Below are positions 4,927-33,015 of a stretch of 37,337 nt of DNA, piece by piece. The stretch lies in NCBI GenBank assembly GCA_019429325.1, contig JAHYJA010000012.1, positions 1-37,337 on the forward strand. Direction: 5' to 3'. Position numbers and translations under genes: made by a program. This DNA comes from Bacteroidales bacterium (lineage in GTDB: Bacteria > Bacteroidota > Bacteroidia > Bacteroidales > VadinHA17). Each line of letters starts with the position of its first letter. Position 1 is the first letter of the stretch. Under the pieces are notes generated by a model, which was not told the origin of the DNA, ran no database searches, and was given only the letters and a program-made list of their open reading frames with translations.

Positions 4927-5928
4927 TTAAATTATAGTTGCCCTGCTCATGGCAAGAAGGTTTTGATGCGGGGTAAGAACTGTTATCTCACAACCTGCTG
5001 CCAGTAAATATTTCTGATCCTTGTATTTTTCCACAAGCGACCTGGAAATAGCATAAACTTCATCTTCAGATTTGTCTTGTACAAGCACCGGATTAATATT
5101 GCCGCCGATTACAACCTCATTGCCCAGTTTTTCCCTTGCAAGATCTATATCAACCTGCCAGTCAAGGTCAATAATATCGGTATTGATTTCTTTTAATGAT
5201 TCAAGCAAATGTGTTATATCGCCACAAATATGCAGTTTGACCTCAGCTCCGCATTCATGGATAAAAGCAATTAATTCGGCATGACGATCTTTAATATAAA
5301 TATCGTATGTATCCCTGTCTATCTGCGAACAGATTGCATCACCCATCCCTATAAGATCACAGCCTGCTTCAATCTGGGCTCTGGCAAATTTCTTTGCTGT
5401 AATCATGCATTTATCCATAAGCAGGTTCGAAAAATCAGGATCTGTCATCAGACTGAGGAGCATCTCACTGACCCCTGCCAGATCGCATGCTTCGGCAAGC
5501 GGGCCCTCTATCCAGCCGCTTACAGGAACGGTCCCTTTAAGCAATTGCTGGTAGTATTCTGCTCCCTTTATCCTGTCGTAAGTTCGTTCACAATTGAATA
5601 CATCGGGGTCAGGGAGGTTTCTGACATCCTCAATTGTTCCCACAATCCTGTCAAGACAGCGTGGAACGCCCTCATCGATATAATCAATCCGGGCCCCGAA
5701 AGCAGAAGTTTCACGGTATGGATCCGATATAAGGCTGACCATATCGGTGTCAAAGTATTCCATTGCCCGGATATTGCTTTCAACCAATGTTTTATAATCC
5801 GAGGCAAATTTTCCGTATGTAGTATTGTTAAATCTTGCGGCAAAATGCATGAGTATCGGCCGGAAGAATACCTTTTCCTTATTCCCGTTACCTCTTAAGA
5901 GCGCATGATAAAGTTGTAGCTTATTCAC
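4927..5928 (-). CDS. Uroporphyrinogen decarboxylase-fold protein, methyltransferase-like (MtaA/CmuA type)
   Basis: The 333-residue protein has no signal peptide. It has the URO-D TIM-barrel fold with GWIEGPLAEACDLAG, DLIGMGDAICSQI and, near residue 235, VKLHICGD. The His-x-Cys-Gly element with a further Cys near the C-terminus (LAAGCEI) resembles the zinc site of corrinoid-dependent methyltransferases (MtaA/MtbA/CmuA) rather than the Arg-rich porphyrin site of HemE. The role is therefore more likely methyl-group transfer than haem synthesis. It sits 12 bp before the Gfo/Idh gene in a glycan-degradation block, where similar genes are often found. No corrinoid protein or reactivase is visible nearby, so the methyl acceptor and donor are unknown. 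Confidence 0.75.
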   Translation of the reverse strand: MNKLQLYHALLRGNGNKEKVFFRPILMHFAARFNNTTYGKFASDYKTLVESNIRAMEYFDTDMVSLISDPYRETSAFGARIDYIDEGVPRCLDRIVGTIEDVRNLPDPDVFNCERTYDRIKGAEYYQQLLKGTVPVSGWIEGPLAEACDLAGVSEMLLSLMTDPDFSNLLMDKCMITAKKFARAQIEAGCDLIGMGDAICSQIDRDTYDIYIKDRHAELIAFIHECGAEVKLHICGDITHLLESLKEINTDIIDLDWQVDIDLAREKLGNEVVIGGNINPVLVQDKSEDEVYAISRSLVEKYKDQKYLLAAGCEITVLTPHQNLLAMSRATII

Positions 5929-5983
5929 GAAAGTTTTTATCCCAAGTTAGAACAAATTCTGATAATGGCTTAATGTTTTGAGC

Positions 5984-7552
5984 TTAGAAATATACTTTAT
6001 TTCCCGGATCGGCTGTTGAATACAGGATAACATCTCCTGCTTCGACACGGTATCCTTTTGGAATATTCCTGGCTGTTAACCGGATGGTGTGCTTACCCTC
6101 AGGCAGGTCGTATTTCCATGCCACCTCGAGCCTGCGTATGCGGGACTGTGTCGGCATTTTCACAGTTTCAAGAAACACGTCATCAGCTAAAACATCGAAT
6201 TCAAGAGTTGCCTCGGGCATGTTACTTTCTTTGACAGCTCTGCCGGTTACAACAAAACCACAACCCTCCATTTCGAATGAAAGTTCGGGAGTCTCAGCAG
6301 TGAGCCACTTCCGCAAACCATGACGTACAGTAGGAAAAATACCCTCAAAGGCGACTTCGTACGGCACCTGTTGCGGAACCTGATATTTAATTAAAAGTTT
6401 GTCGCCTTCAGCTCCGCCGCCATTGAGTCTGATCATATCAGTGGCATGCCGGTATCCGGTCTCATACACCTTGTTGAGCGACATGTCGGTGTACCGGAAG
6501 TTCATATTTTCCACCTTTTCTATGCCCTGTTTCCAGTAATCGGGAATCTGGCTGTAACCTGTCATGGTTGCGAGGATACCGGCAGCATTGGCAGGGTTGC
6601 AGTCGGAATCGTAACCGCAGCGGGTGCTGATATCGACAGTTGCCCCGAAATCACCTTTGCCGTAGAGCAGTCCGATCACAATATAAGCCGCATTGATCTT
6701 TGCATCGATATTAAAAGGACGGAAAACGCCGTCAGGACATCCCTTATCAAAAGTCCATTTTTTTTGCGCTTCAAACCAGGCCCTTTTCCAGTCATCGGGA
6801 TCTTGTTTGTACCACCGGATAATATCAGCAATACATTTATGGAATTGGCTCTGCTCAGGAATGGTTTTCAGTGCTTCGGTAACGATGAATTCGATATCAT
6901 TGTAGACAAAGGCAAGGGCATACATCGCTGCGACATATATACCGCCATAAACGCCATCTCCATAATTCATTATGTGTCCGATCCTGTTGCCAATTCCGGC
7001 TGCCGTATTAACCATTCCGGGTGACATAAGGCCTGCAAAGTCGGCCTCAATCTGAAAGTCGATATCATCTGCATGAGGGTTGTTCTTCCAATGCCCCGAA
7101 GCAGGAGGCATTATTCCGTTCAGAATATTATACCTGGCGGCCTGATTGGCGTGCCACAACTGGTATTCAGCGTTTGCAAATGCCAGGGCATGCAACGAGT
7201 CAGGTGCATCCAGACCATGTTTCTCAAAAATGTCAACAAATGTCAGGTCCATATACACATCGTCGTACAGACCCGGAGAGTTTTCGTAATACCAGAGCAT
7301 CCGGGTATCGTCCCAGGGTATGGGTACGCGATCTCCGATCATTGTTCCGTTCCATTGAAATTCCGTAGGACCTCCATAAGTGCACCCTATTACCTGGCCT
7401 GCCCATCCTCCTTTTATTTTGTCCTGAAGAAGCTCAATGGGAATGGTTACAATTTCTCTTTCGGCGTATTGGACATCTTTTTTTTGGACCGTCTGTGTCT
7501 GGCAGGAGATTAAAACCGTTACCACGAGAGATAGTACTATAAGCTTTCTCAT
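5984..7552 (-). CDS. ADP-ribosylglycohydrolase-fold lipoprotein with C-terminal beta domain
   Basis: The 522-residue protein has a lipoprotein signal (VVTVLISC, Cys about residue 17). An ADP-ribosylglycohydrolase-type helical domain spans roughly residues 40-370. Its two metal-site motifs are recognisable: PWDDTRM near residue 80 and RCGYDSDCNPANAAGI near 310, where the usual D-S/T-D-T reads D-S-D-C. A beta-rich tail of about 130 residues follows (VLADDVFLETVKMP, LPEGKHTIRLTARN) and resembles a carbohydrate-binding or sandwich domain. Export and the glycan context argue against reversal of intracellular ADP-ribosylation and for a glycosidase-like role on an extracellular glycan, but this is inference. 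It lies about 55 bp upstream of the URO-D-like gene. Confidence 0.75.
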   Translation of the reverse strand: MRKLIVLSLVVTVLISCQTQTVQKKDVQYAEREIVTIPIELLQDKIKGGWAGQVIGCTYGGPTEFQWNGTMIGDRVPIPWDDTRMLWYYENSPGLYDDVYMDLTFVDIFEKHGLDAPDSLHALAFANAEYQLWHANQAARYNILNGIMPPASGHWKNNPHADDIDFQIEADFAGLMSPGMVNTAAGIGNRIGHIMNYGDGVYGGIYVAAMYALAFVYNDIEFIVTEALKTIPEQSQFHKCIADIIRWYKQDPDDWKRAWFEAQKKWTFDKGCPDGVFRPFNIDAKINAAYIVIGLLYGKGDFGATVDISTRCGYDSDCNPANAAGILATMTGYSQIPDYWKQGIEKVENMNFRYTDMSLNKVYETGYRHATDMIRLNGGGAEGDKLLIKYQVPQQVPYEVAFEGIFPTVRHGLRKWLTAETPELSFEMEGCGFVVTGRAVKESNMPEATLEFDVLADDVFLETVKMPTQSRIRRLEVAWKYDLPEGKHTIRLTARNIPKGYRVEAGDVILYSTADPGNKVYF

Positions 7553-7639
7553 AATTGTTTATTTATAATTTAATACCTGTAATTTAATCCAGATCAGTTT
7601 GTTAAGTCGTTTTGCAGGTTCTCTTTTCACAGTATGGCT

Positions 7640-8820
7640 TTAATTATATGATCTTTCACCGATAATTAATACCCATGGGTTGTTATCGGGTGCTTTAAAA
7701 GCAGAATCAGGGGATGTCGTTCCCTGTATGGCGATCTCTCCGTTTTTGGGATTAAACCAGCAGAAAGAAAGGCCTTGGGGTACATTCCTGATCTCAATCT
7801 CCCCCCCGTTTTCAAGGTATGAAATATAGAATTTCCCTTCTTTGGCAAGAAGCGGTTTATTTGCATCGGTAAGATCCCATCTCTTTTCCATATCGGCAAA
7901 GTCAAAACCACCGAATGCACTTGAAACAAGCCCTGCATAATTACTGCCTTCCTGTGACATAGCTTCTCTCCACGACATCGGTGCATTTGTCCAGCTGTCC
8001 CAGCCGGGTTCGTCGGGCGTTATCTTCCATTGCCACAGGCATACTGCCCCGTAAACAACACCCATGGTACCGCCGTGCATAAGCTGGTTCCATGCTTCCT
8101 CACCCTGCCACCAGCCAAGACCGTTTTTACCGTTACCCATCCCTTCATAAGTGGGCTCTCCGTTCAGGTTTGCCTTTACAGGTTTGTTGTCGTACATCCT
8201 TTCAACCTTATGATATAGATGTAAACCATCGTGACCTGTCTGTGCCCATTGAAAATCAAGCCAGGGCTCATCCTGTCGGCTGCATACTCTTTTACCTGGC
8301 CCGTTGTTGCCCTGAAAGGAATTGACCATGGAGTATCGCCAACCACAAGAAAGGATTTGCCATTAGCATGAATAATATTGCGTTTTCCCTCCGACATTTT
8401 CAGGAGTCCACGTCTCAGAAGGCTGTTATTGCCGGTGTAAGTAACGGAGATCAGTGAACCTTTTTTACCGGAAAGACCTCTGTCATGAGGGCTGGAGAAG
8501 GTTGTCCAGTACCAGGTTGTGCCGGCATCCGGAGGTGAGAACCTGATTTTCCATGTGTTTCCTCCATCCCAGAAAGCCGGCCTTGTCAGGGTGTCCCCGT
8601 TTCCGTTCGTGAAGTATGCCCAGACATCCATATCCGTATATCCGTTATCGTAAGATGATTGTGATTTCAGCGTAATCTCATGGGTGGTCCATTGCTGAAC
8701 TTCAGGTGGTGGCAAATGATCGGCACAACTTGAAGTTATTACAACTGCAAATAACACTGCAAAAATGATCTTCCATGGCAACAGTTGGGTTTGGGTTTGA
8801 TTTAGTGTGTCTTTTTTCAT
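7640..8820 (-). pseudogene. Broken DUF5060/DUF4038 (apiosidase-like) lipoprotein: internal deletion with frameshift
   Basis: Two overlapping ORFs are the two ends of one gene. The N-terminal part (8820 down to about 8270) has a lipoprotein signal (VVITSSC), a DUF5060-like domain (GGNTWKIRFSPPDAGTTWYW) and the start of the DUF4038 barrel (FLVVGDTPWSIPFRATT, QVKEYAADR). The C-terminal part continues in another frame with DEPWLDFQWAQTGHDG, MYDNKPVKANLNGEPTYEG and a cap domain ending WVLIIGE. In relatives, as I recall them, well over 100 residues including the first half of the barrel lie between AADR and the WLDFQW segment. Here they are joined within about 15 bp near 8265-8280. A simple single-base frameshift cannot explain the missing residues. 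The product is probably non-functional, unless the join is an assembly error. Confidence 0.8.
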
Positions 8821-11475: not shown

Positions 11476-12759
11476 ATGAAAAATGTGAATGTTTTTTTAC
11501 AAGAGCATAAACTAAGAGCTTCTGATATAGATATTCAGCAATTAGTTGATTTATTTACAACTGAAATGACAAATGGCCTTGCCGGCCGGGAAAGTTCTCT
11601 GCGTATGATACCTACCTACATTGAAGCCGACAACGAGTTCCTTTATGAAGTCCCGGTTGTTGCAATAGATGCCGGGGGTACTAACTTCAGGGCTGCAGAA
11701 GTAATCTTTAGTAAAGAAGGAGAACTTGAGATAAGGGATTTGGTCAATGCGAGAATGCCAGGATTGGATGGAGAGGTATCAAAGGATGAGTTTTTCAGTA
11801 CACTGGCCGGATATATAAAACACCTCGCAGTAAAATGCGACAGGATCGGTTTCTGCTTTTCCTATCCGACTGAAATTCTGCCGGAAAAAGATGGTATACT
11901 GCTTCAATTCTGCAAGGAAGTGAATGCTCCGGGAGTCATAGGGCAGATGATCGGGAAAAACCTTCTGGAGGCTCTTGGAATGCCTGAGAAAAAGATTGTA
12001 TTGCTGAACGATACAGTTGCCACCCTCCTGGCTGGCAAGTCCGCTTCGGTCAGTAAAACCTACGATTCGTTTATTGGTTTTATCCTCGGAACGGGAACCA
12101 ACACCTGCTATATCGAAAGCAACCGGAACATTCTGAAAAAACCCGGGCTTGATCCGGGGAAAAGCCAGATCATTAACATTGAGTCAGGTAATTTAGGCAA
12201 TCCGCCCCGCACGGCACTTGATACTGAATTCGATAACACGACCGCCACTCCGGGAAATTATGCCTTTGAAAAGATGATTTCCGGAGCTTATCTCGGGAAC
12301 CTTTGTCTTCACGTACTTAAAAGGGCTGCCACAGATAATGTTTTTTCACAAGAGACTGCCAGGCAGATCCTGGGTTTGTCCCAGCTTTCATCCGAAGACG
12401 CCAGTAACCTTGACACAATGTACGGGAATAAACTTAACCTCCTGGGCAAATGTATCTCGTCTGCAGAGGACGAGATCAACAGTGTCACCATAATTGACAA
12501 CCTGATTGACCGTGCCGCAAAACTGGTGGCAGCAAACCTTGCCGCTGTGGTTCTTAAAACAGGTAAAGGAGAATCGGCAGAACATCCCATCCTGATGACC
12601 ATTGAAGGAACTGCATTCTATAAGCTGCACAGGCTGAAGGAGAGGTTTGAGAATTATTTCTCGGACTACCTCAGCGGACAACGGAAGCGTTACGCCGAGT
12701 TTACCGAGGTCCCGCAATCAAGCCTGGTCGGGGCGGCACTTGCAGCTTTAGTCGAGTAG
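11476..12759 (+). CDS. Hexokinase family sugar kinase
   Basis: The 427-residue protein has the eukaryote-like hexokinase fold and should phosphorylate a hexose with ATP in the cytoplasm. The phosphate-1 loop is VVAIDAGGTNFRAAEV near residue 60. A sugar-binding stretch FCFSYPTEI, the catalytic segment VLLNDTVATLLAG and the glycine-rich FILGTGTNTCYIES follow in the expected order. It starts 42 bp after deoC and precedes the TIM-barrel isomerase by 25 bp, so these three are probably co-transcribed. Hexokinases of this type are frequent in Bacteroidota; the sugar specificity cannot be read from sequence. Confidence 0.88.
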   Translation: MKNVNVFLQEHKLRASDIDIQQLVDLFTTEMTNGLAGRESSLRMIPTYIEADNEFLYEVPVVAIDAGGTNFRAAEVIFSKEGELEIRDLVNARMPGLDGEVSKDEFFSTLAGYIKHLAVKCDRIGFCFSYPTEILPEKDGILLQFCKEVNAPGVIGQMIGKNLLEALGMPEKKIVLLNDTVATLLAGKSASVSKTYDSFIGFILGTGTNTCYIESNRNILKKPGLDPGKSQIINIESGNLGNPPRTALDTEFDNTTATPGNYAFEKMISGAYLGNLCLHVLKRAATDNVFSQETARQILGLSQLSSEDASNLDTMYGNKLNLLGKCISSAEDEINSVTIIDNLIDRAAKLVAANLAAVVLKTGKGESAEHPILMTIEGTAFYKLHRLKERFENYFSDYLSGQRKRYAEFTEVPQSSLVGAALAALVE

Positions 12760-15819: not shown

Positions 15820-15964
15820 GCGGTGATCAGTAATCAGTAATCAGTAATCGGTGATCAGTAATCAGTAGTAAGTAGTCAGCAACCAGTAACCAGCAACCAA
15901 TAACCAGCAACCAGTAACCAGTAACCAGTAACCAGTAACCAGTAACCAGCAACCAGCAACCAGT
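15811..15964. repeat. Heptamer tandem array, 22 units in unbroken 7-bp phase
   Basis: The 154 bp divide exactly into 22 heptamers without slippage. Units drift from GAGCGGT (2) through GATCAGT/AATCAGT/AATCGGT (6), AGTAAGT and AGTCAGC, to AACCAGT/AACCAGC/AACCAAT (12). Positions 4-7 (mostly CAGT or CAGC) vary least. The array starts inside the last codons of the beta-helix gene and ends 19 bp before the DoxX-fusion start. The units are direct, adjacent and lack spacers, so this is not CRISPR. The graded change in unit sequence suggests repeated local duplication. Confidence 0.92.
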
Positions 15965-15983
15965 AAACATAATTCAGAGCGGA

Positions 15984-17579
15984 ATGAGAACAAAAGAAAG
16001 CACAGCAAAGGGAATCAACCAGATACTGCCATGGCTGGTATCAATTGTCAGGATTGCCATCGGATGGCATTTTTTATATGAGGGAATGGTGAAAATCGTT
16101 GGCGGGACCTGGTCGTCGGCTCCCTACCTGGCAGGATCCAAATGGATCTTCGGTCCGCTGTTCAATGCAATGGCAGAAAGCCCAGCAGTTGTAGGCATAA
16201 TTGATTTCATGAATATGTACGGGATGATACTCGTAGGCGCCGGGCTGATTATGGGATTGCTTACAAGGTGGGCGAGCCTGGCCGGAGCAGTTATGCTTTT
16301 CTTCTATTTCGTCGCCTATCCGCCTGTGTCGGGTTATACAGTCGGAGTACCTGTTGAGGGAAATTACCTGTGGGTAAACAAGACTCTTATTGAGTTTCTT
16401 GTCCTTTCCGGATTTATTTTCCTCTCTTCAAAATACCATTTCGGGCTTGACCGGCTTTACAGCAACTGGAAAGAGATCAGGGTCCGGAAACCTGTTCCTG
16501 CCCCCTCCACGGAAGGTAAAAAGAAGCTTGATCGGAGAGAAGCCATTAAGGATCTGATAACAGTGCCTGCTCTGGGTCTCTTTGCTTATGCATTTTACAG
16601 GAAACGCAAATGGGATAGCTTTGAGGAGAAGCTTCTTCAGGTTGAGGGTATCGATGCAAATTCAAGTGAAACCCTGCTGACCTTTAACTACTCGACTCTT
16701 TCCGATCTTAAGGGACAGGTGCCAAAAGCTTCCATCCCGTACACTGACAAGGATGGAATGCCTGCAACATTTGAGCTCAGCCGGATAGTCATGGGGGGGA
16801 ACCTTATCGGGGGATGGGCTCACGCAAGGGATCTGATCTATGTCTCAAGGCTTGTGAAGACCTATCACACAGACGAGAAGGTGATGCAAACCCTTGCCCT
16901 TGCAGAGAAGTGCGGTATTAATGCAATTATTACCAATCCACAGCTCGGAAGGGTTTTCCAGAAATACAAGCGGGAATTTCATGGTAAAATGAAATTCATT
17001 TCCGACTGCGGAGTGGGTCTCGACTTCCAGAAGGGGATTGCGATGTCGCTGGCTGTTGACTCCGATGCTCTTTATTGTCAGGGGGAGATAACCGACAGGT
17101 GGGCCGATGAGAACTGGGATGATAGCGAAAAAAGAACGGTTGCGCAGCGCATGGAATTGCTTGGGAGGGGGCTTGATGAAATACGACGTTATGGCAAACC
17201 AGCCGGTATCGGCGCTCATAAGATTGAGGCTATTAAAGTGTGTGTTGAACATGGACTCAGACCTGATTTCTGGGTAAAAACCTGCCACAGCCATAATTAC
17301 TGGTCAGCTCAGCCGGAATCAGCATGGAAGGACAATATGTTCGATTACGATCCGGAAGAGACAATCCGCTTCATGGGAACCCTTAAAGAGCCATGGATCG
17401 CCTTCAAGGTACTGGCCGCCGGAGCCATCAAACCCGAGGTGGGCCTCAGGTACGCATTCAATAACGGTGCCGACTTTGTCTGCCTGGGAATGTATGACTT
17501 CCAGATTGTTGAGGATGTCAACATTGCACTTGACACTCTGAGCCAGGTTAAAGAACGTCCGAGACCATGGATAACATAG
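15984..17579 (+). CDS. DoxX-family membrane domain fused to an aldo/keto-reductase-like TIM barrel
   Basis: The 531-residue protein joins two parts. Residues about 1-165 form a DoxX/TQO-like membrane domain with several helices (IVRIAIGWHFLYEGMVKI, YGMILVGAGLIMGLL, AVMLFFYFVAYPP, TLIEFLVLSGFIFL). A Tat-like segment DRREAIKDLITVPALG and one more hydrophobic stretch come near residue 185-205. The remaining 320 residues are a soluble barrel with SRIVMGGNLIGGWAH, KFISDCGVG, PAGIGAHKIEAIK and GADFVCLGMYDFQIVEDV. The C-terminal part resembles the aldo/keto reductase superfamily, but the usual catalytic tetrad is not evident. I recall similar fusions in other Bacteroidota, so it is unlikely to be an artefact. 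Function is unknown; a membrane-tethered redox role is a guess. Confidence 0.68.
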   Translation: MRTKESTAKGINQILPWLVSIVRIAIGWHFLYEGMVKIVGGTWSSAPYLAGSKWIFGPLFNAMAESPAVVGIIDFMNMYGMILVGAGLIMGLLTRWASLAGAVMLFFYFVAYPPVSGYTVGVPVEGNYLWVNKTLIEFLVLSGFIFLSSKYHFGLDRLYSNWKEIRVRKPVPAPSTEGKKKLDRREAIKDLITVPALGLFAYAFYRKRKWDSFEEKLLQVEGIDANSSETLLTFNYSTLSDLKGQVPKASIPYTDKDGMPATFELSRIVMGGNLIGGWAHARDLIYVSRLVKTYHTDEKVMQTLALAEKCGINAIITNPQLGRVFQKYKREFHGKMKFISDCGVGLDFQKGIAMSLAVDSDALYCQGEITDRWADENWDDSEKRTVAQRMELLGRGLDEIRRYGKPAGIGAHKIEAIKVCVEHGLRPDFWVKTCHSHNYWSAQPESAWKDNMFDYDPEETIRFMGTLKEPWIAFKVLAAGAIKPEVGLRYAFNNGADFVCLGMYDFQIVEDVNIALDTLSQVKERPRPWIT

Positions 17580-17621
17580 CCTGACAGAAGGTCATTTTCT
17601 GTCTACTTAACTTTGCTGAAA

Positions 17622-20141
17622 ATGAAATCATTTATTGGATGCCTTAGTATCGTTGCAGGTATTGCAATGGTCCTGGATTCGTGTACACAACAACCTGTTC
17701 AGGTCTTGTACGATTTTGATTCAGTGAATGACAGGATCTGGATCGGAGAAGATTTCTGGGCAGTGCCCCTCGAAGACTGGCGTATTAATAATGGTCGTAT
17801 TGAATTTACCGGCGAGGGACAACAGGCTACCTGCGCTCTTCTGCCGTACAGGATCGGCCAACATGAAAAACCATTCAGTATAAGCATGGAGATGGGCCTG
17901 CTCGATCAGGGTGAGAATAACGGATCAGCCGGACTGATCATTGGCTCACAGGCTTCTGAAGAAGATGACATCAGGGCCGCGATCTTCTTTGGAAGCGGTA
18001 TTAACGCCGGGATTCACACTGACGGCTACGCCTTTATCGGCCAGAATACAAAAAAATTACCGGCTGAGTTTGTGTTCAGCAAATTCCGGTTACTCCTCAC
18101 CGGCGATAAAAGTCCTGAAGGATTTCTTTTACGTCTTAATATTATTGATGATGAAGGCAATTCCGTAACAGAGGTGACATCTGTGCCGGAGACCCCGGTT
18201 ACCGGCATCATACAGTTTGTTAATAACCCGAGGAGTGCCAGATCAAAGAACAACGGGCCTAAATTCTGGTTCGATAACTTTGCGATTGAAGGCGCTGGCT
18301 TTGATTATGAACCTGAAAACAGATTTGGTCCTGTCTTGTGGAGCATGTACACTCTGAGCAGGAACACCCTTAAAATGACAGCACAGCTTCCTCCAATCTC
18401 TGAAATGGATAATCAAATCGTGGAGCTTGAACTGAAAACGGGTAAAAATTGGATATCTGCCGATACTCAACCAATAGAACCTGATTCACGCACCACTTCA
18501 TTCAGAATTGAAAACTGGGATCCTCTGAAGAAAAAGGAATACAGGATATTATACCGGTACATAAACATTCAGGGCAGGGAAGAGACCTTTAGTTATGCAG
18601 GCATGATACGGAAAGAGCCAGCAGGTGGCCAGTTGCGCATGGGAGCAATGACCTGCCAGTACCATACAGGGTTTCCTTACTCTCCCGTGGTAAGGAACCT
18701 CGGCTTAAAAAATCCGGATATTCTGTACTTCTCAGGTGATCAGATCTATGAGCAGAACGGAGGTTACCCTATAAAAAGGGAACCCGAAGATATGGCTATT
18801 CTGAGCTACCTTGGCAAATGGTATATGTTTGGCTGGGCTTTCGGTGATATTATGCGGGATGTTCCCGCCATCTGCACTCCTGACGATCATGATGTCTTTC
18901 AGGGCAACCTGTGGGGCGGGGGAGGAATAGCGAGGCCTCCCGGGACAGCAGGCAGCGATGATCTTATGGGATTTACCCAGACAGTCAGAATGGTCAATGT
19001 CGTAAATACAACACAGTGTTCTCATCTGCCCGATCCATTCGATCCTGCTCCCATAGAACAGGGAATGAAAGTATGGTACACGAGCCTTAACTATGGGAGG
19101 GTAAGCTTCGCTATAATAAGTGACAGGGTTTTCAAGTCGGGCCCTAACCTGGTGGCGGACTGGGAAGGAAGGAAAGACCATCTTAAAGAACCGCTCAAAG
19201 ATCCTTCAGTTATTGACAGACCTGAACTGGTTCTGCTGGGAGAGAGGCAGGAAGCATTCCTCGAAAACTGGATCAGGGACTGGAAAGATGTCGATATGAA
19301 AATTCTGTTATCACAGACACCTTTTACGAACGCTGCAACTCACCACGGACAGCAGGACGGCTACCTTTTCGGCGACCTCGATTCGGGAGGATGGCCAAAG
19401 AAAGCACGCGACAGGGCGATAGGAATAATACGCAAAGCTTTCGTTCTTCATATAACAGGCGACCAGCATATTCCTTCTCTCGTCCAGTACGGACTGGATA
19501 GTTTCCGGGATGCCGGCTGGTGTTTCTGCACTCCCGCGATTGCCGTTGGCTATTCCAGATGGTTCCGTCCCGATGAACTGAATATCCCAGTAAGCAACAG
19601 GCCGGAACATAACCTGCCCAATACCGGGGAATACACCGATGCATTCGGCAATAAAAACTATATCTGTGCAATAGGCAATCCGGGCGATTTTGGAGGGATC
19701 AGCAACCGCTATAAATTCCAGCAGGAAAAAACTGCCGGACTCGGGTTTGTTATTTTTGATATTGAAAACCGCGAAATTACAATGGAATCATGGCGCTTCC
19801 TTAGTGATGTTACCAGACCCGACAGTGAGAGCCAGCATCCGGGCTGGCCGCTGACAATCATCCAGACGGATAATTATGGACGCAAGCCTGTGGCCTTTCT
19901 GCCGACCCTGAAGATATCAGGAGATCCTGATCCCGTTGTGGAGATCATTAATCAGACAACAGGAGAACTTGAGTATATATTGAGGATTAAAGGCAATGAG
20001 TTTATACCCGGAGTATTCAGCAATGAAAGGTTCAAGGTAAAAGTCGGCTATCCTGAAAAAAACCTCGAAAAAACATTTTTTGATATTACTCCCGGTACTG
20101 CCTCCGGTCAATCAGAACTTATAATTGATTTCAATCAATAA
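17622..20141 (+). CDS. PhoD-like metallophosphatase lipoprotein with N-terminal beta domain
   Basis: I start this at the ATG at 17622 rather than the TTG three codons earlier, giving 839 residues. A lipoprotein signal ends at VLDSC. Residues about 30-230 form a lectin/LamG-like beta domain (DDIRAAIFFGSGINAGIH, FWFDNFAIEG). The rest is a PhoD-type metallophosphatase with GAMTCQYHTGF, PDILYFSGDQIYE, AICTPDDHDVFQGN, ISDRVFKS and VLHITGDQHIPS, which together supply the Asp, Asn and His metal ligands of the family. It probably cleaves phosphodiester or phosphomonoester bonds outside the cytoplasm, perhaps on a phosphorylated glycan given the context. It starts 42 bp after the DoxX fusion. Confidence 0.78.
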   Translation: MKSFIGCLSIVAGIAMVLDSCTQQPVQVLYDFDSVNDRIWIGEDFWAVPLEDWRINNGRIEFTGEGQQATCALLPYRIGQHEKPFSISMEMGLLDQGENNGSAGLIIGSQASEEDDIRAAIFFGSGINAGIHTDGYAFIGQNTKKLPAEFVFSKFRLLLTGDKSPEGFLLRLNIIDDEGNSVTEVTSVPETPVTGIIQFVNNPRSARSKNNGPKFWFDNFAIEGAGFDYEPENRFGPVLWSMYTLSRNTLKMTAQLPPISEMDNQIVELELKTGKNWISADTQPIEPDSRTTSFRIENWDPLKKKEYRILYRYINIQGREETFSYAGMIRKEPAGGQLRMGAMTCQYHTGFPYSPVVRNLGLKNPDILYFSGDQIYEQNGGYPIKREPEDMAILSYLGKWYMFGWAFGDIMRDVPAICTPDDHDVFQGNLWGGGGIARPPGTAGSDDLMGFTQTVRMVNVVNTTQCSHLPDPFDPAPIEQGMKVWYTSLNYGRVSFAIISDRVFKSGPNLVADWEGRKDHLKEPLKDPSVIDRPELVLLGERQEAFLENWIRDWKDVDMKILLSQTPFTNAATHHGQQDGYLFGDLDSGGWPKKARDRAIGIIRKAFVLHITGDQHIPSLVQYGLDSFRDAGWCFCTPAIAVGYSRWFRPDELNIPVSNRPEHNLPNTGEYTDAFGNKNYICAIGNPGDFGGISNRYKFQQEKTAGLGFVIFDIENREITMESWRFLSDVTRPDSESQHPGWPLTIIQTDNYGRKPVAFLPTLKISGDPDPVVEIINQTTGELEYILRIKGNEFIPGVFSNERFKVKVGYPEKNLEKTFFDITPGTASGQSELIIDFNQ

Positions 20142-20191: not shown

Positions 20192-21853
20192 ATGAAAAAG
20201 CTTTTTGTGCTGTTGATTTTGACATGTGTCAATCAAATGGCTTTTAGTCAAGGTATTACTGAATTCGACCTTGTGATTTACGGAGGTACATCTGCCGGTA
20301 TCAGCGCGGCTATTCAGGCTTCGCGGATGGGAAAATCGGTAGTACTGATTGAGCCCACCAGCCGGATTGGCGGGTTAACTACAGGAGGATTGGGTCAGAC
20401 CGATATCGGCAACAAGCAGGCCATTGGCGGAATTGCCCGCGAGTTCTATCAGGATGTTAAGAAGTATTACCAGCAACCCGAAAACTGGAAATGGCAAAAA
20501 GCGGAAGAGTATCGCGATGGAGGCCAGACCCGCACCGAATCAGCCGAAGATGCCATGTGGACCTTCGAACCATCGGCCGCTCTGAAAATATTTCACCGGA
20601 TGCTTGCCGGGGAGAAAAATATCACCCTCGTTTATGACCAGCGGCTTGACAGGCAAAAAGGGGTTACGAAAAAGAAAGGAGTAATTACCTCCATCTCGAT
20701 GGAAAGTGGCCTGACATACTCCGGCAAAGCCTTTATCGACGCCACCTACGAAGGTGATTTAATGGCCACTGCAGGGGTCTCCTACGCCGTGGGCAGGGAA
20801 TCTGACAGAAAGTATGGCGAAACGCTCAACGGCGTTCATACCGCCGATACTGCCCGTACAATGACCAACCAGGTTTCACGTAATTCGATTAACCATAATT
20901 TTGTGCATGGAGTTGATCCATACCGCGAGAAAGGCAACCCTGCAAGCGGACTGCTGCCGTTTATCAATCCTAAAGGCCCCGGAAAGGAAGGTTCTGCAAA
21001 TAAAGGTGTGCAGGCCTATTGCTTCAGGATGTGCCTTACCGACCACCCCGAAAACCGTATCCCGTTTGAAAAGCCTGCAAACTACAACGAACTCGATTAC
21101 GAACTTCTGCTGAGAAACTACGAAGCAGGAGAAAAAGGATTTCCCTGGATCAACTCTGACATGCCCAACCGAAAAACTGATACTAATAACAGACTTGGTT
21201 TTTCAACCGATTTTATCGGGCAGAATTATGATTATCCCGAAGCCTCTTATTCCGAAAGGCAGCTAATTGCAGAACGCCACCGCAATTACCAGAAAGGACT
21301 TATGTGGACACTGGCATATCACCCCCGGATGCCCGAACACATCCGGAAAGAAGTATCGCGTTGGGGTATGTGCAAAGATGAATTTACCGAAGGTAACGGC
21401 TGGCAGGAACAGTTGTATGTGCGCGAAGCCCGGCGTATGATAAGTGATTACGTGATGACTCAGTACAACTGTGAAGGCCTTGCCGTGGCGTCCGACCCGG
21501 TGGGTCTGGCTGCCTACGGAATGGATTCGCACCATGTTCAGCGATATGTCACAGCTGAAGGATTTGTGAAAAATGAAGGTAATGTGGAAGCCCGTGTCAG
21601 AGGCCCTTATCCAATCAGTTACCGGGCCATCATACCCAAAGAAAAACAATGTAAAAACCTCCTGGTGCCGGTTTGCGTCAGCGCAACTCATATTGCCTTT
21701 GGTTCAATCCGGATGGAACCGGTTTTTATGGTGCTGGGGCAGTCGGCAGCCATCGCGGCCTCCATGGCAATCGATAAGCAAATTCCTGTGCAACATGTAA
21801 ATTACAATGAATTAGCGAAAACATTACTGGAAAACAAACAGCGGCTTCAATAA
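20192..21853 (+). CDS. Secreted FAD-dependent oxidoreductase
   Basis: The 553-residue protein has a Sec signal peptide ([17 protein letters not shown]) followed directly by an FAD-binding Rossmann fold: [42 protein letters not shown]. Further family marks are [19 protein letters not shown] and a C-terminal [20 protein letters not shown]. Relatives are often loosely annotated as xanthan lyase or FAD-dependent oxidoreductase in glycan loci; I have no evidence for lyase activity. Substrate is unknown, perhaps an oxidisable sugar or sugar acid. It starts 50 bp after the phosphatase and the frame is intact. Confidence 0.85.
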
Positions 21854-29982: not shown

Positions 29983-31826
29983 ATGAAAAGATCTATTCTG
30001 ACTACACTTTTTCTCTGCGCATATATTGCTTTAAGCGCACAGGGATATCCTTTTCAGAATACGAGTCTCCCGGAGAATGAGAGAATAAGGAATCTGATCT
30101 CGCTGATGACAATTGATGAGAAGATAAGCTGCCTCTCAACCCGCTTCACCGTTCCGAGGCTTGGAATTTACGGCACACGCACTATTGAAGGACTGCATGG
30201 ACTCGCTTACAGCGGTACTGCCAACTGGGCAGTAAAAGGCCCCAAGGCTTCACCAACAACCACTTTCCCGCAGGCCTACGGACTTGCTCAGACCTGGGAT
30301 CCGGAACTGCTCCGGAGAATAGCTGACTGGCAGGCAACTGAGGCCCGTTATCTTGCACAGAGCAAACGATTCGGAACAGGGGGCCTTATTGTCTTTGCGC
30401 CGAATGCGGACCTCGGCCGCGATATCAGGTGGGGCAGGACGGAAGAGTGTTTCGGGGAGGATGCCTTCCTCAATTCAGTTATGGTAACGGCCTGGGTAAA
30501 AGGACTTCAGGGAGATCACCCTCTTTACTGGAAGACAGCTTCGCTGATGAAACACTTTCTTGCAAACAGCAACGAGAACAACAGGACCTATAACAGCTCC
30601 GATTTCGACGACAGGCTATTCAGGGAGTATTATTCATATCCATTCTGGAAAGGGGTGGTGGATGGGGGATCTCAATGCTTTATGGCTGCCTACAACAAAT
30701 ACAACGGAATACCCTGCACAGTCCATCCTGTTCTGCGCAGTGTCACAATGAATGAGTGGGGCCTCAGGGGAATCATTTGTACTGACGGCGGAGCCTATCG
30801 TCAATTGCTGACTACACATGATTATTATCCATCACTGGATATTGCTGCTGCAGAGTGTTTTAAAGCAGGCATAACGGTTTTCCTTGATAATTACAGGGCT
30901 CCGCTTCAGGAGGCTCTCCAGAGCGGCCTGATTTCAATGAAAGAAATTGACGAGGCAATTTACGGGAACCTGAGGGTGCTCCTGAAACTGGGTCTTATGG
31001 ATGATTCACCGAATAATCCTTATTCGAACATTGGTATTTCCGACACAATAGCTCCCTGGACAAAACCGGAGGCCTTTGAACTGGTGCGAGAAGCGACGGG
31101 CGTGAGGATGTTGACCGCCAGGCAATAACACTCGAGCAGGAGGACCTTGTCAGACTTGTAATGAAAGCCAATCCAAACACTATAATGGTAGTTGTTTCAA
31201 GTTTTCCGTATGCCATTAACTGGACCGGAGAGAATGTCCCGGCAATACTTCATGTGAGCCAGTCAAGCCAGGAACTGGGCAATGCAGTCGCCGATGTGAT
31301 ATTTGGCAGGGTGAGTCCGTCGGGCCGCCTCGTGCAGACATGGATAACTTCAATAGATCAGCTTCCGCCAATACTCGATTATAACATTAGGAACGGAAGG
31401 ACCTACATGTATGATAAAAATGAACCACTTTTCCCCTTTGGTCACGGGCTTACATATACCAGTTTTTCTTATTCTGACTTGAAATTGTCGCGCAAATCAG
31501 TTCAGGCAAATGATATCGTTGAAATTACATTTAATGTCAGTAATACCGGTAATTACGACAGCGATGAGGTTGCCCAGCTCTATGTCAGTTTTCCGGATTC
31601 AAAGGAGGAAAGGCCCATAAAGGAATTAAAAGGATTTTCACGGGTAATGGTCAGGAAAGGAGAGTCCGAAAGAGTGACCATTTATCTGAAGGCAAATGAT
31701 CTGATGTACTGGGATGACATTAAACATAGATGGACGCTTGAACCCGGAAGGGTCAGTTTCTTTGTCGGATCCTCTTCTGTTGATAAAAGGCTTGAGGGAG
31801 AGATTACCGTACGAGGCCGGAGATAA
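29983..31826 (+). pseudogene. Broken GH3 beta-glucosidase-like gene: middle deleted, frame changed
   Basis: ORFs 29983-31128 and 31161-31826 are the two ends of one GH3 gene. The N-terminal part has a Sec signal (LTTLFLCAYIALSAQ), the GH3 barrel (GLHGLAYSG, GRDIRWGRTEECFGED, SLMKHFLANSNENNR) and the nucleophile region IICTDGGAYRQL. It runs to AFELVREATG and then hits a stop. In another frame the DNA from about 31105 reads EDVDRQAITLEQEDLVRLV, joining in frame to the tracked ORF (VVVSSFPYAINW, LFPFGHGLTYTSF, then a fibronectin-III-like tail). In intact GH3 enzymes, roughly 150-250 residues of the second domain separate these points. The join lies within 31085-31110. An active enzyme is unlikely. 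Confidence 0.85.
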
Positions 31827-32135: not shown

Positions 32136-32405
32136 ATGAACAGCCCCGAATTAAAAGCATTTATACGCAAACACAGTTCTCTTTTCTGGTATATCCCGGA
32201 AGATAAGAAGGAGGACCTGAGTCCCGATATAGTTGTAGAGTTTATTTTTAATTACGGGACACTGGATGATGTTAAGACTTTAATCAAAATATTGGGAGTT
32301 GAGAATACAGCAAAAATTTTTTTTGCGGCCAGGGGGAGGAAAAAATTAAACTATTATCCTGAGATTTATAATTACTTCTCTCTCTATTTTAAAAGATATG
32401 CATAA
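32136..32405 (+). CDS. DUF6922-like small protein, probable antitoxin partner
   Basis: The 89-residue protein has no signal peptide or helix-turn-helix that I can identify. The core FIFNYGTLDDVKTLIKILG and the C-terminal NYYPEIYNYFSLYF match, from memory, the DUF6922 pattern (a 'gVleyGdiedikwLik…' helix pair). Such genes are usually found directly upstream of AbiEii-type nucleotidyltransferases, as here, where the two overlap by 8 bp. The antitoxin role is inferred from position. This and the next gene look more AT-rich than the glycan genes, which suits horizontal transfer. Confidence 0.6.
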   Translation: MNSPELKAFIRKHSSLFWYIPEDKKEDLSPDIVVEFIFNYGTLDDVKTLIKILGVENTAKIFFAARGRKKLNYYPEIYNYFSLYFKRYA

Positions 32406-33015
32406 AGAGATCTTCACTGAAAATCAGCTTAAACTTTTTCCGCTGGTTAAAGCTTTTAAGCGGGAATTCTATCTTGTTGGAGGCACTGCAATAGCTTTAT
32501 ATCTGGGACACAGAAGGTCGATAGATTTCGATTTATTTAAAAGCTCTTCCCTTCATCAAAAAAGAATTATTTCAAAAATATCAGCGTCTCATTTTAAATA
32601 TAAGGTAACCAGAAGAGTTACGGAACAACTTAATGTGACTATAAATGATGTCTCATTTACTTTCTTTGAGTACCCATATGTAATTGATGCTAAAAACAAT
32701 TTTGAGGACGTAATGCGTTTGCCTTCCCTAATTGACCTTGCCGCTATGAAGGCATACGCCCTTGGACGAAGATCGAAATGGAAAGATTATGTCGACTTTT
32801 ATTTTCTTTTAAAAAATAATTTCACCATTAACCAGATTTCTGACCGTGCTGTTGAAATTTACGACCAGATGTTCTCACAAAAGCTATTCAGAGCGCAGTT
32901 AAGTTTCTTTAAGGATATAAATTATGATGAACCTGTTGAATGCCTTGAAGAAGCTCCTTCCAGAACTGAAATCCAAAGATTTCTTATCGACAGGGCTATC
33001 GATATCGGGATCTGA
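32398..33015 (+). CDS. AbiEii/MenT-type nucleotidyltransferase (probable toxin)
   Basis: The 205-residue protein has the nucleotidyltransferase signature FYLVGGTAIALYLGHRRSIDFDLF near residue 25-50 (GG…T-A…D-x-D), followed by LPSLIDLAAMKAYALGRRSKWKDYVDFYFLL, typical of the AbiEii/AbiGii toxin family (PF08843). Members act as toxins in type IV-like toxin-antitoxin or phage-defence pairs, probably by adding nucleotides to tRNA. It overlaps the upstream DUF6922-like gene by 8 bp, so they are likely translated together. It sits between two broken glycosidase genes. Confidence 0.8.
   Translation: MHKEIFTENQLKLFPLVKAFKREFYLVGGTAIALYLGHRRSIDFDLFKSSSLHQKRIISKISASHFKYKVTRRVTEQLNVTINDVSFTFFEYPYVIDAKNNFEDVMRLPSLIDLAAMKAYALGRRSKWKDYVDFYFLLKNNFTINQISDRAVEIYDQMFSQKLFRAQLSFFKDINYDEPVECLEEAPSRTEIQRFLIDRAIDIGI

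Follow-up and report, generated by a model that had tools for sequence, protein, structure and literature searches.

A candidate family of quinone-linked periplasmic oxidoreductases built from a DoxX membrane module and an aldo-keto reductase-like barrel

The window (the whole stretch of DNA analysed here, 37,337 nucleotides) contains an open reading frame that joins a DoxX-type membrane domain to an unnamed TIM barrel. This locus raises the question of whether the two halves truly belong to one protein, and what a membrane domain of this type could do for the barrel. The features of the reading frame are:

15984-17579, + strand: DoxX-barrel open reading frame, 531 amino acids, intact from ATG to stop
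15984..16499, + strand: DoxX domain with four transmembrane helices, residues 1-172 (Pfam match, AlphaFold2 model)
16533..16613, + strand: twin-arginine R184-R185 and fifth (Tat-type) helix with RKRK at its end, residues 184-210 (conservation)
16653..16673, + strand: position of the flavinylation-type motif, residues 224-230, here the degenerate D-A-N-S-S-E-T (family alignment)
16707..17576, + strand: unnamed TIM barrel with an aldo-keto reductase (AKR)-like fold lacking the tetrad, residues 242-531 (Foldseek)
16794..16841, + strand: most conserved barrel loop, GGNLIGGWAHARDLIY, residues 271-286 (invariant residues)
17277..17306, + strand: second conserved barrel loop, KTCHSHNYWS, residues 432-441 (alignment)

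The DoxX-barrel fusion and its genomic context

Residues 19-108 match the Pfam family DoxX (PF07681) with 25.3 bits, above the curated cut-off of 23.6, and in the AlphaFold2 model (pLDDT 87.4, pTM 0.74) the four DoxX helices are followed by a fifth helix and by an alpha/beta barrel that stands apart from them. Both the DoxX membrane module and the barrel half proposed in the earlier note on this DNA were confirmed in this way. Pfam DoxX is matched by 68 of 76 homologues (E up to 1), and NCBIfam TQO_large_DoxD also by nine homologues. No sequence match to the C-terminal half was found in Pfam, NCBIfam or PDB. The same note's view of the protein as an uncharacterised putative membrane redox enzyme was supported.

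The source genome is fragmented (3.39 Mb in 263 contigs, the window being contig C199), and an assembly error or a chance read-through could in principle have joined two unrelated genes. This explanation is refuted, with negligible residual probability, by the recurrence of the same junction in 104 homologues from many genomes; the fusion is therefore no artefact but a real protein architecture. The earlier note had also considered that homologues might always be split in two genes, or that a deletion join might lie near residue 180. Neither was the case: the 104 homologues are fused, and they read through this position with R184-R185 invariant.

The nearest named relatives are Bacteroidales-type genomes. 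In a survey of the same order, 50 of 247 genomes matched the protein or its DoxX part, and nearly all barrels in these genomes are fused to DoxX. The GTDB survey revealed at least 570 barrel relatives, and about 70 of the best 80 loci are DoxX fusions. Altogether, 104 fused sequences were aligned. Among the matches listed, fusions occur in Bacteroidota, Planctomycetota, Acidobacteriota, KSB1, Hydrogenedentota, Kiritimatiellota, Verrucomicrobiota and Calditrichota, where single phylum assignments may be misbinned because most of the fusion genomes are metagenome-assembled. This distribution indicates that the fusion is widespread and old. In a Kiritimatiellales genome (L120), two DoxX-barrel fusions stand in tandem at 5224-6843 and 6994-8421.

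Barrel relatives lacking DoxX comprise eight true cases; a fused protein cut by a contig edge (L104) and a doubtful reading frame on a very long branch (L152:4203-5369) were set aside from this count. The eight are scattered on the barrel tree, whose root position is not fixed, and this scatter suggests several separate losses of DoxX. A paralogue in the window's own genome (contig C29) has retained the first DoxX helix alone. Two same-genus barrel paralogues (L066 9107-10306 and L064 7789-9093) are DoxX-truncated or DoxX-less, and the complete flavinylation motif is also gone from them.

The earlier note had connected the protein with its neighbours, and two genes that it named are present downstream:

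17613-20141, downstream: PhoD-like phosphatase
20192-21853, downstream: FAD_oxidored protein

Sulfatases lie further downstream, and a beta-helix protein with GH141-like segments lies upstream. A link to these neighbours was not supported; the flanking genes vary from genome to genome. Membership of glycan loci was rejected likewise: among the 68 operonic neighbours, each Pfam family is represented three times at most, a raw count taken without a background rate, so that a weak enrichment would be possible.

Several other features of the window are recorded here. At 15828-15966, a 7-bp unit (CAGTAAC) is repeated in tandem about 20 times, and the array stops 17 bp short of the start codon; the repeat did not turn up at the other loci retrieved, and a phase-variable spacing of a promoter or ribosome site is possible. 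An apiosidase-like gene (7640-8820, - strand; DUF5060, Apiosidase, Collagen_bind_2) is split across two overlapping reading frames in different frames, by a frameshift, as a pseudogene or through a sequencing error. A GH3 enzyme (29983-31826, + strand) is likewise divided into two reading frames, the second of which begins within the GH3 C-terminal domain. A hexokinase (11476-12759, + strand; Pfam Hexokinase_1/2), in this bacterial genome, adjoins deoC and a xylose-isomerase-like barrel. An AbiEii-type nucleotidyl transferase, which represents the toxin of a type IV toxin-antitoxin system, lies within a glycan region (32398-33015, + strand).

The twin-arginine anchor and the linker motif

Two elements between the DoxX domain and the barrel were overlooked by the earlier note, namely an internal twin-arginine anchor and a flavinylation-type linker motif. 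R184 and R185, directly before the last helix, are present in all 104 fused homologues, as is P195 within this helix. Basic residues follow the helix, with R or K at position 206 in 96/104 and at position 207 in 87/104. A low hydrophobicity of the last helix would be expected of a dual Sec-Tat protein; the mean Kyte-Doolittle value of helix 5 is 1.35, compared with 1.32 to 2.10 for helices 1-4, so that helix 5 is only weakly hydrophobic but not less hydrophobic than helix 1. In the DoxX-less relatives from Planctomycetota, an ordinary Tat signal (for example NRRRFLKG or DRREFLQG) forms the start of the protein. TatC is encoded in 17 of 18 fusion genomes; its presence was rejected as a proof of Tat use, TatC being general. 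The barrel is very probably exported outside the cell membrane, and by analogy with the known dual Sec-Tat proteins the Tat system would probably be the route.

The proven dual Sec-Tat proteins include the actinobacterial Rieske protein, Sco3746, a polyferredoxin and the YkuE family (PMC5449189). They share with the DoxX-barrel proteins the order of Sec helices, a twin arginine before the last helix, basic residues and an outside globular domain; in contrast, the combination of DoxX and barrel is not among the families named in the consulted part of PMC5449189.

The same anchor was also found apart from the barrel. Where a standalone DoxX of this type occurs, the next gene begins with the same RR-helix in 24 of 24 distinct loci (nine loci plus 18 loci, with three places common to both sets), and in the loci scanned by Pfam and clustering this gene encodes a Gfo/Idh/MocA oxidoreductase. 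A 36-residue RR-helix profile built from the fused proteins was searched against 379 neighbour genes, and it retrieved exactly nine Gfo/Idh/MocA partners (E 9e-9 or better); whereas three other genes of the Gfo/Idh/MocA cluster were not matched. The helix therefore travels with DoxX and not with the enzyme family. The 15 further split loci showed the same arrangement, and DoxX plus the RR-helix is therefore a portable membrane module. The split pairs use the same DoxX subfamily and the same helix as the fusions, divided over two genes; however, they carry another enzyme domain and no flavinylation motif. The pairs at L068-L076, L003-L008 and L026-L037 make up a two-gene putative exported oxidoreductase that is apparently undescribed, and no paper describing the standalone DoxX and Gfo/Idh/MocA pair was found.

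The linker between the anchor and the barrel carries a motif that resembles the target site of the flavin transferase ApbE. Sites of ApbE follow the consensus D-x-x-[S/T]-G-A-[S/T], in which FMN is carried by the last residue (PMC12052999). In motif mutants, loss of this Thr abolishes flavinylation and changes of the Asp matter little; whereas the tested Gly or Ala changes leave about half of the flavinylation (PMC12052999). The strict pattern D..[ST]GA[TS] is found in 52 of the 104 fused homologues, and 33 more fit D..[ST][GS]A[TS] with Ser in place of Gly (85/104). Position 230 is always Thr (94) or Ser (10), and position 229 is Ala in 95/104. Ser replaces Gly at the fifth position in 41/104, and the motif departs further from the consensus in 17/104. 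The linker columns around it are variable and gapped in the 104-sequence alignment. As a background, the strict motif occurs in two of the 379 neighbour genes.

The motif also tends to occur together with DoxX. Allowing G, S or A at the fifth position, it is present in 87/104 fused proteins compared with one of the eight DoxX-less relatives (Fisher p 7e-5, uncorrected for relatedness); the exception is L140, which keeps DTVTAAT. The sites of FMN_bind proteins, an established substrate family, read DAITAAT or DAITAST in the same genomes, and Gly is therefore not essential in this lineage. ApbE is encoded in 18 of 18 fusion genomes, which is unspecific because their FMN_bind proteins also need ApbE. 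No apbE gene was linked to the fusions at the loci examined; in the window genome, the sole ApbE shares its contig with an FMN_bind gene some 3 kb away, and its presence is therefore not specific. Overall, flavinylation is rather likely in most of the family.

The window copy itself is an outlier. It retains Asp224, Ser227 and Thr230; whereas Gly and Ala are lost (G to S and A to E), and it is the only one of the 104 with Glu at position 229. The copy of the sister genome reads DANTSAT, and the nearest relative (L079) reads DANSGAT. Because of this degenerate motif, flavinylation of the window copy is doubtful, and the motif is claimed only at the level of the family; the window copy may be modified poorly or no longer at all. 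The earlier note had suggested a structure prediction to look for a cofactor pocket; no pocket is visible at the motif because this loop has a pLDDT below 50.

The barrel domain

Foldseek placed the barrel closest to PA4992 (4exb/4exa), a putative aldo-keto reductase, with E of about 1e-6, a TM-score by target of 0.65-0.70 and an identity of 15-17%. Other AKRs followed, such as L-galactose dehydrogenase, and weaker matches were obtained to deoxyribose-phosphate aldolase and ribulose-phosphate epimerase. The secondary structure and these fold matches are shared by two AlphaFold2 models, the second of which is the model described above. Pfam Aldo_ket_red (PF00248) was matched by only one of the 76 members, weakly (E 0.15), and no Pfam or NCBIfam family was assigned to the barrel. 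The Asp-Tyr-Lys-His tetrad is absent at the aligned positions, as judged from a weak full-length profile alignment, in accordance with the earlier note, which had seen no clear tetrad. Plain membership of the AKR family was rejected on the missing sequence match and the missing tetrad, the latter subject to the same weak alignment.

The barrel has conserved residues of its own. In the loop 271-286, the residues G271, N273, G277, H280, R282, D283, L284 and Y286 are invariant (alignments A1 and A3); residues 281-288 have low pLDDT, as expected for a mobile loop. This is probably an active-site or cofactor loop. In the second loop (432-441), T433, Y439 and W440 are invariant, and K432, H435 and S441 are conserved at 90% or more. 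Further invariant residues are H412, K475, D505 and Q507. Given these invariant residues, the barrel is probably catalytically active, with a site unlike that of the AKRs.

Proposed mechanism, alternatives and relationship to known systems

The twin-arginine anchor and the linker motif together lead to a concrete mechanism, in which the protein would be a quinone-linked periplasmic oxidoreductase, integrated by Sec and Tat, whose tethered FMN would sit between the membrane domain and the barrel; the chances of this full scheme are about even. The four DoxX helices would enter the inner membrane via Sec, leaving the twin-arginine motif exposed in the cytosol, and the weak fifth helix with its basic residues would then be handed to the Tat system, which would move the folded barrel into the periplasm. 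In most members, the linker just outside the membrane would be the ApbE target, with the FMN phosphate joined to Thr/Ser 230. The tethered flavin could carry electrons from the DoxX/quinone site to the active site of the barrel or back, and the barrel would reduce or oxidise a compound with a carbonyl or hydroxyl group. As a tentative guess, this compound could be a sugar or a derivative of one. A contact of the DoxX domain with the quinone pool is slightly favoured; a quinone or thiol redox function of this domain would follow by analogy with DoxD of thiosulfate:quinone oxidoreductase, not from DoxX-barrel proteins.

Three other readings assign the parts differently. In one of them, the motif would be a docking or structural element that lets the linker pack against the periplasmic side of DoxX, and the anchored barrel would use a diffusible redox cofactor or none. 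The frequent Ser for Gly, the Glu at position 229 of the window copy and the absence of a linked apbE fit this explanation, and a joint loss of the motif and DoxX would be expected from it as well. However, it has no need of a close match to the ApbE consensus or of an attachment position that is Thr or Ser without exception. Moreover, the split Gfo/Idh/MocA partners share DoxX and the helix, yet do not have the motif, and docking to DoxX alone therefore needs no such motif. Overall, docking without a flavin is rather unlikely.

The remaining two readings concern the barrel. It might simply be a divergent NAD(P)-dependent aldo-keto reductase tethered to the membrane, since its best structural matches are AKRs (PA4992 and L-galactose dehydrogenase); this is quite improbable, because the single Pfam match is weak, the tetrad positions in the weak alignment are not Asp, Tyr, Lys or His, and the periplasm would offer no free NAD(P)H pool. 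Alternatively, DoxX and the anchor could serve to retain a non-redox, aldolase- or epimerase-like barrel or to help it fold, in line with the weaker structural matches to such enzymes. This is also improbable, given that, where the loci were examined by Pfam and clustering, the module's other partner class is an oxidoreductase, and that the linker bears an attachment motif for a redox cofactor.

Compared with known systems, the parts of the quinone-linked, flavin-tethered oxidoreductase are of known kinds, and their combination appears to be new. The DoxX/DoxD proteins (PF07681 and PF04173), which include the membrane subunit of thiosulfate:quinone oxidoreductase, have the same four-helix membrane domain; whereas the DoxX studied here is fused via an RR-helix to a predicted periplasmic barrel, and no thiosulfate partner was seen. 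The named families of ApbE-flavinylated extracytosolic proteins are FMN_bind, DUF2271, DUF3570, Flavodoxin_4 and FMN_red (PMC8238504, PMC11334425). They resemble most DoxX-barrel relatives in the seven-residue motif, and also in a predicted extracytosolic site and a link to the membrane electron pool; in contrast, the DoxX-barrel proteins contain neither FMN_bind nor any other of the known substrate domains, and their motif lies between the anchor and the barrel. DoxX is not mentioned in these two surveys, which took ApbE linkage or FMN_bind as their starting point and would therefore miss unlinked substrates. The aldo-keto reductases provide the nearest solved fold (PA4992, 4exb/4exa); however, the barrel lacks their tetrad and a convincing Pfam match. 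A search of open-access papers yielded no work that connects DoxX with flavinylation, with Tat anchors or with AKR-like barrels, and nothing relevant on DoxX with quinone.

It is about an even call whether these proteins form an undescribed family, spread over some eight phyla, of quinone-linked periplasmic oxidoreductases that carry covalent FMN on a linker between a DoxX and Tat-anchor module and an AKR-like barrel. If so, they would be both a new class of ApbE substrates and a new family of dual Sec-Tat proteins, of which few are known. DoxX plus the RR-helix would then be a general plug-in that couples periplasmic enzymes, also those of the Gfo/Idh/MocA type, to the membrane. DoxX, an abundant domain of which little is known functionally, would gain a role as a membrane coupler for exported oxidoreductases. 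For Bacteroidota, Planctomycetota and Acidobacteriota, this would provide exported sugar-type dehydrogenases with an electron route to the membrane.
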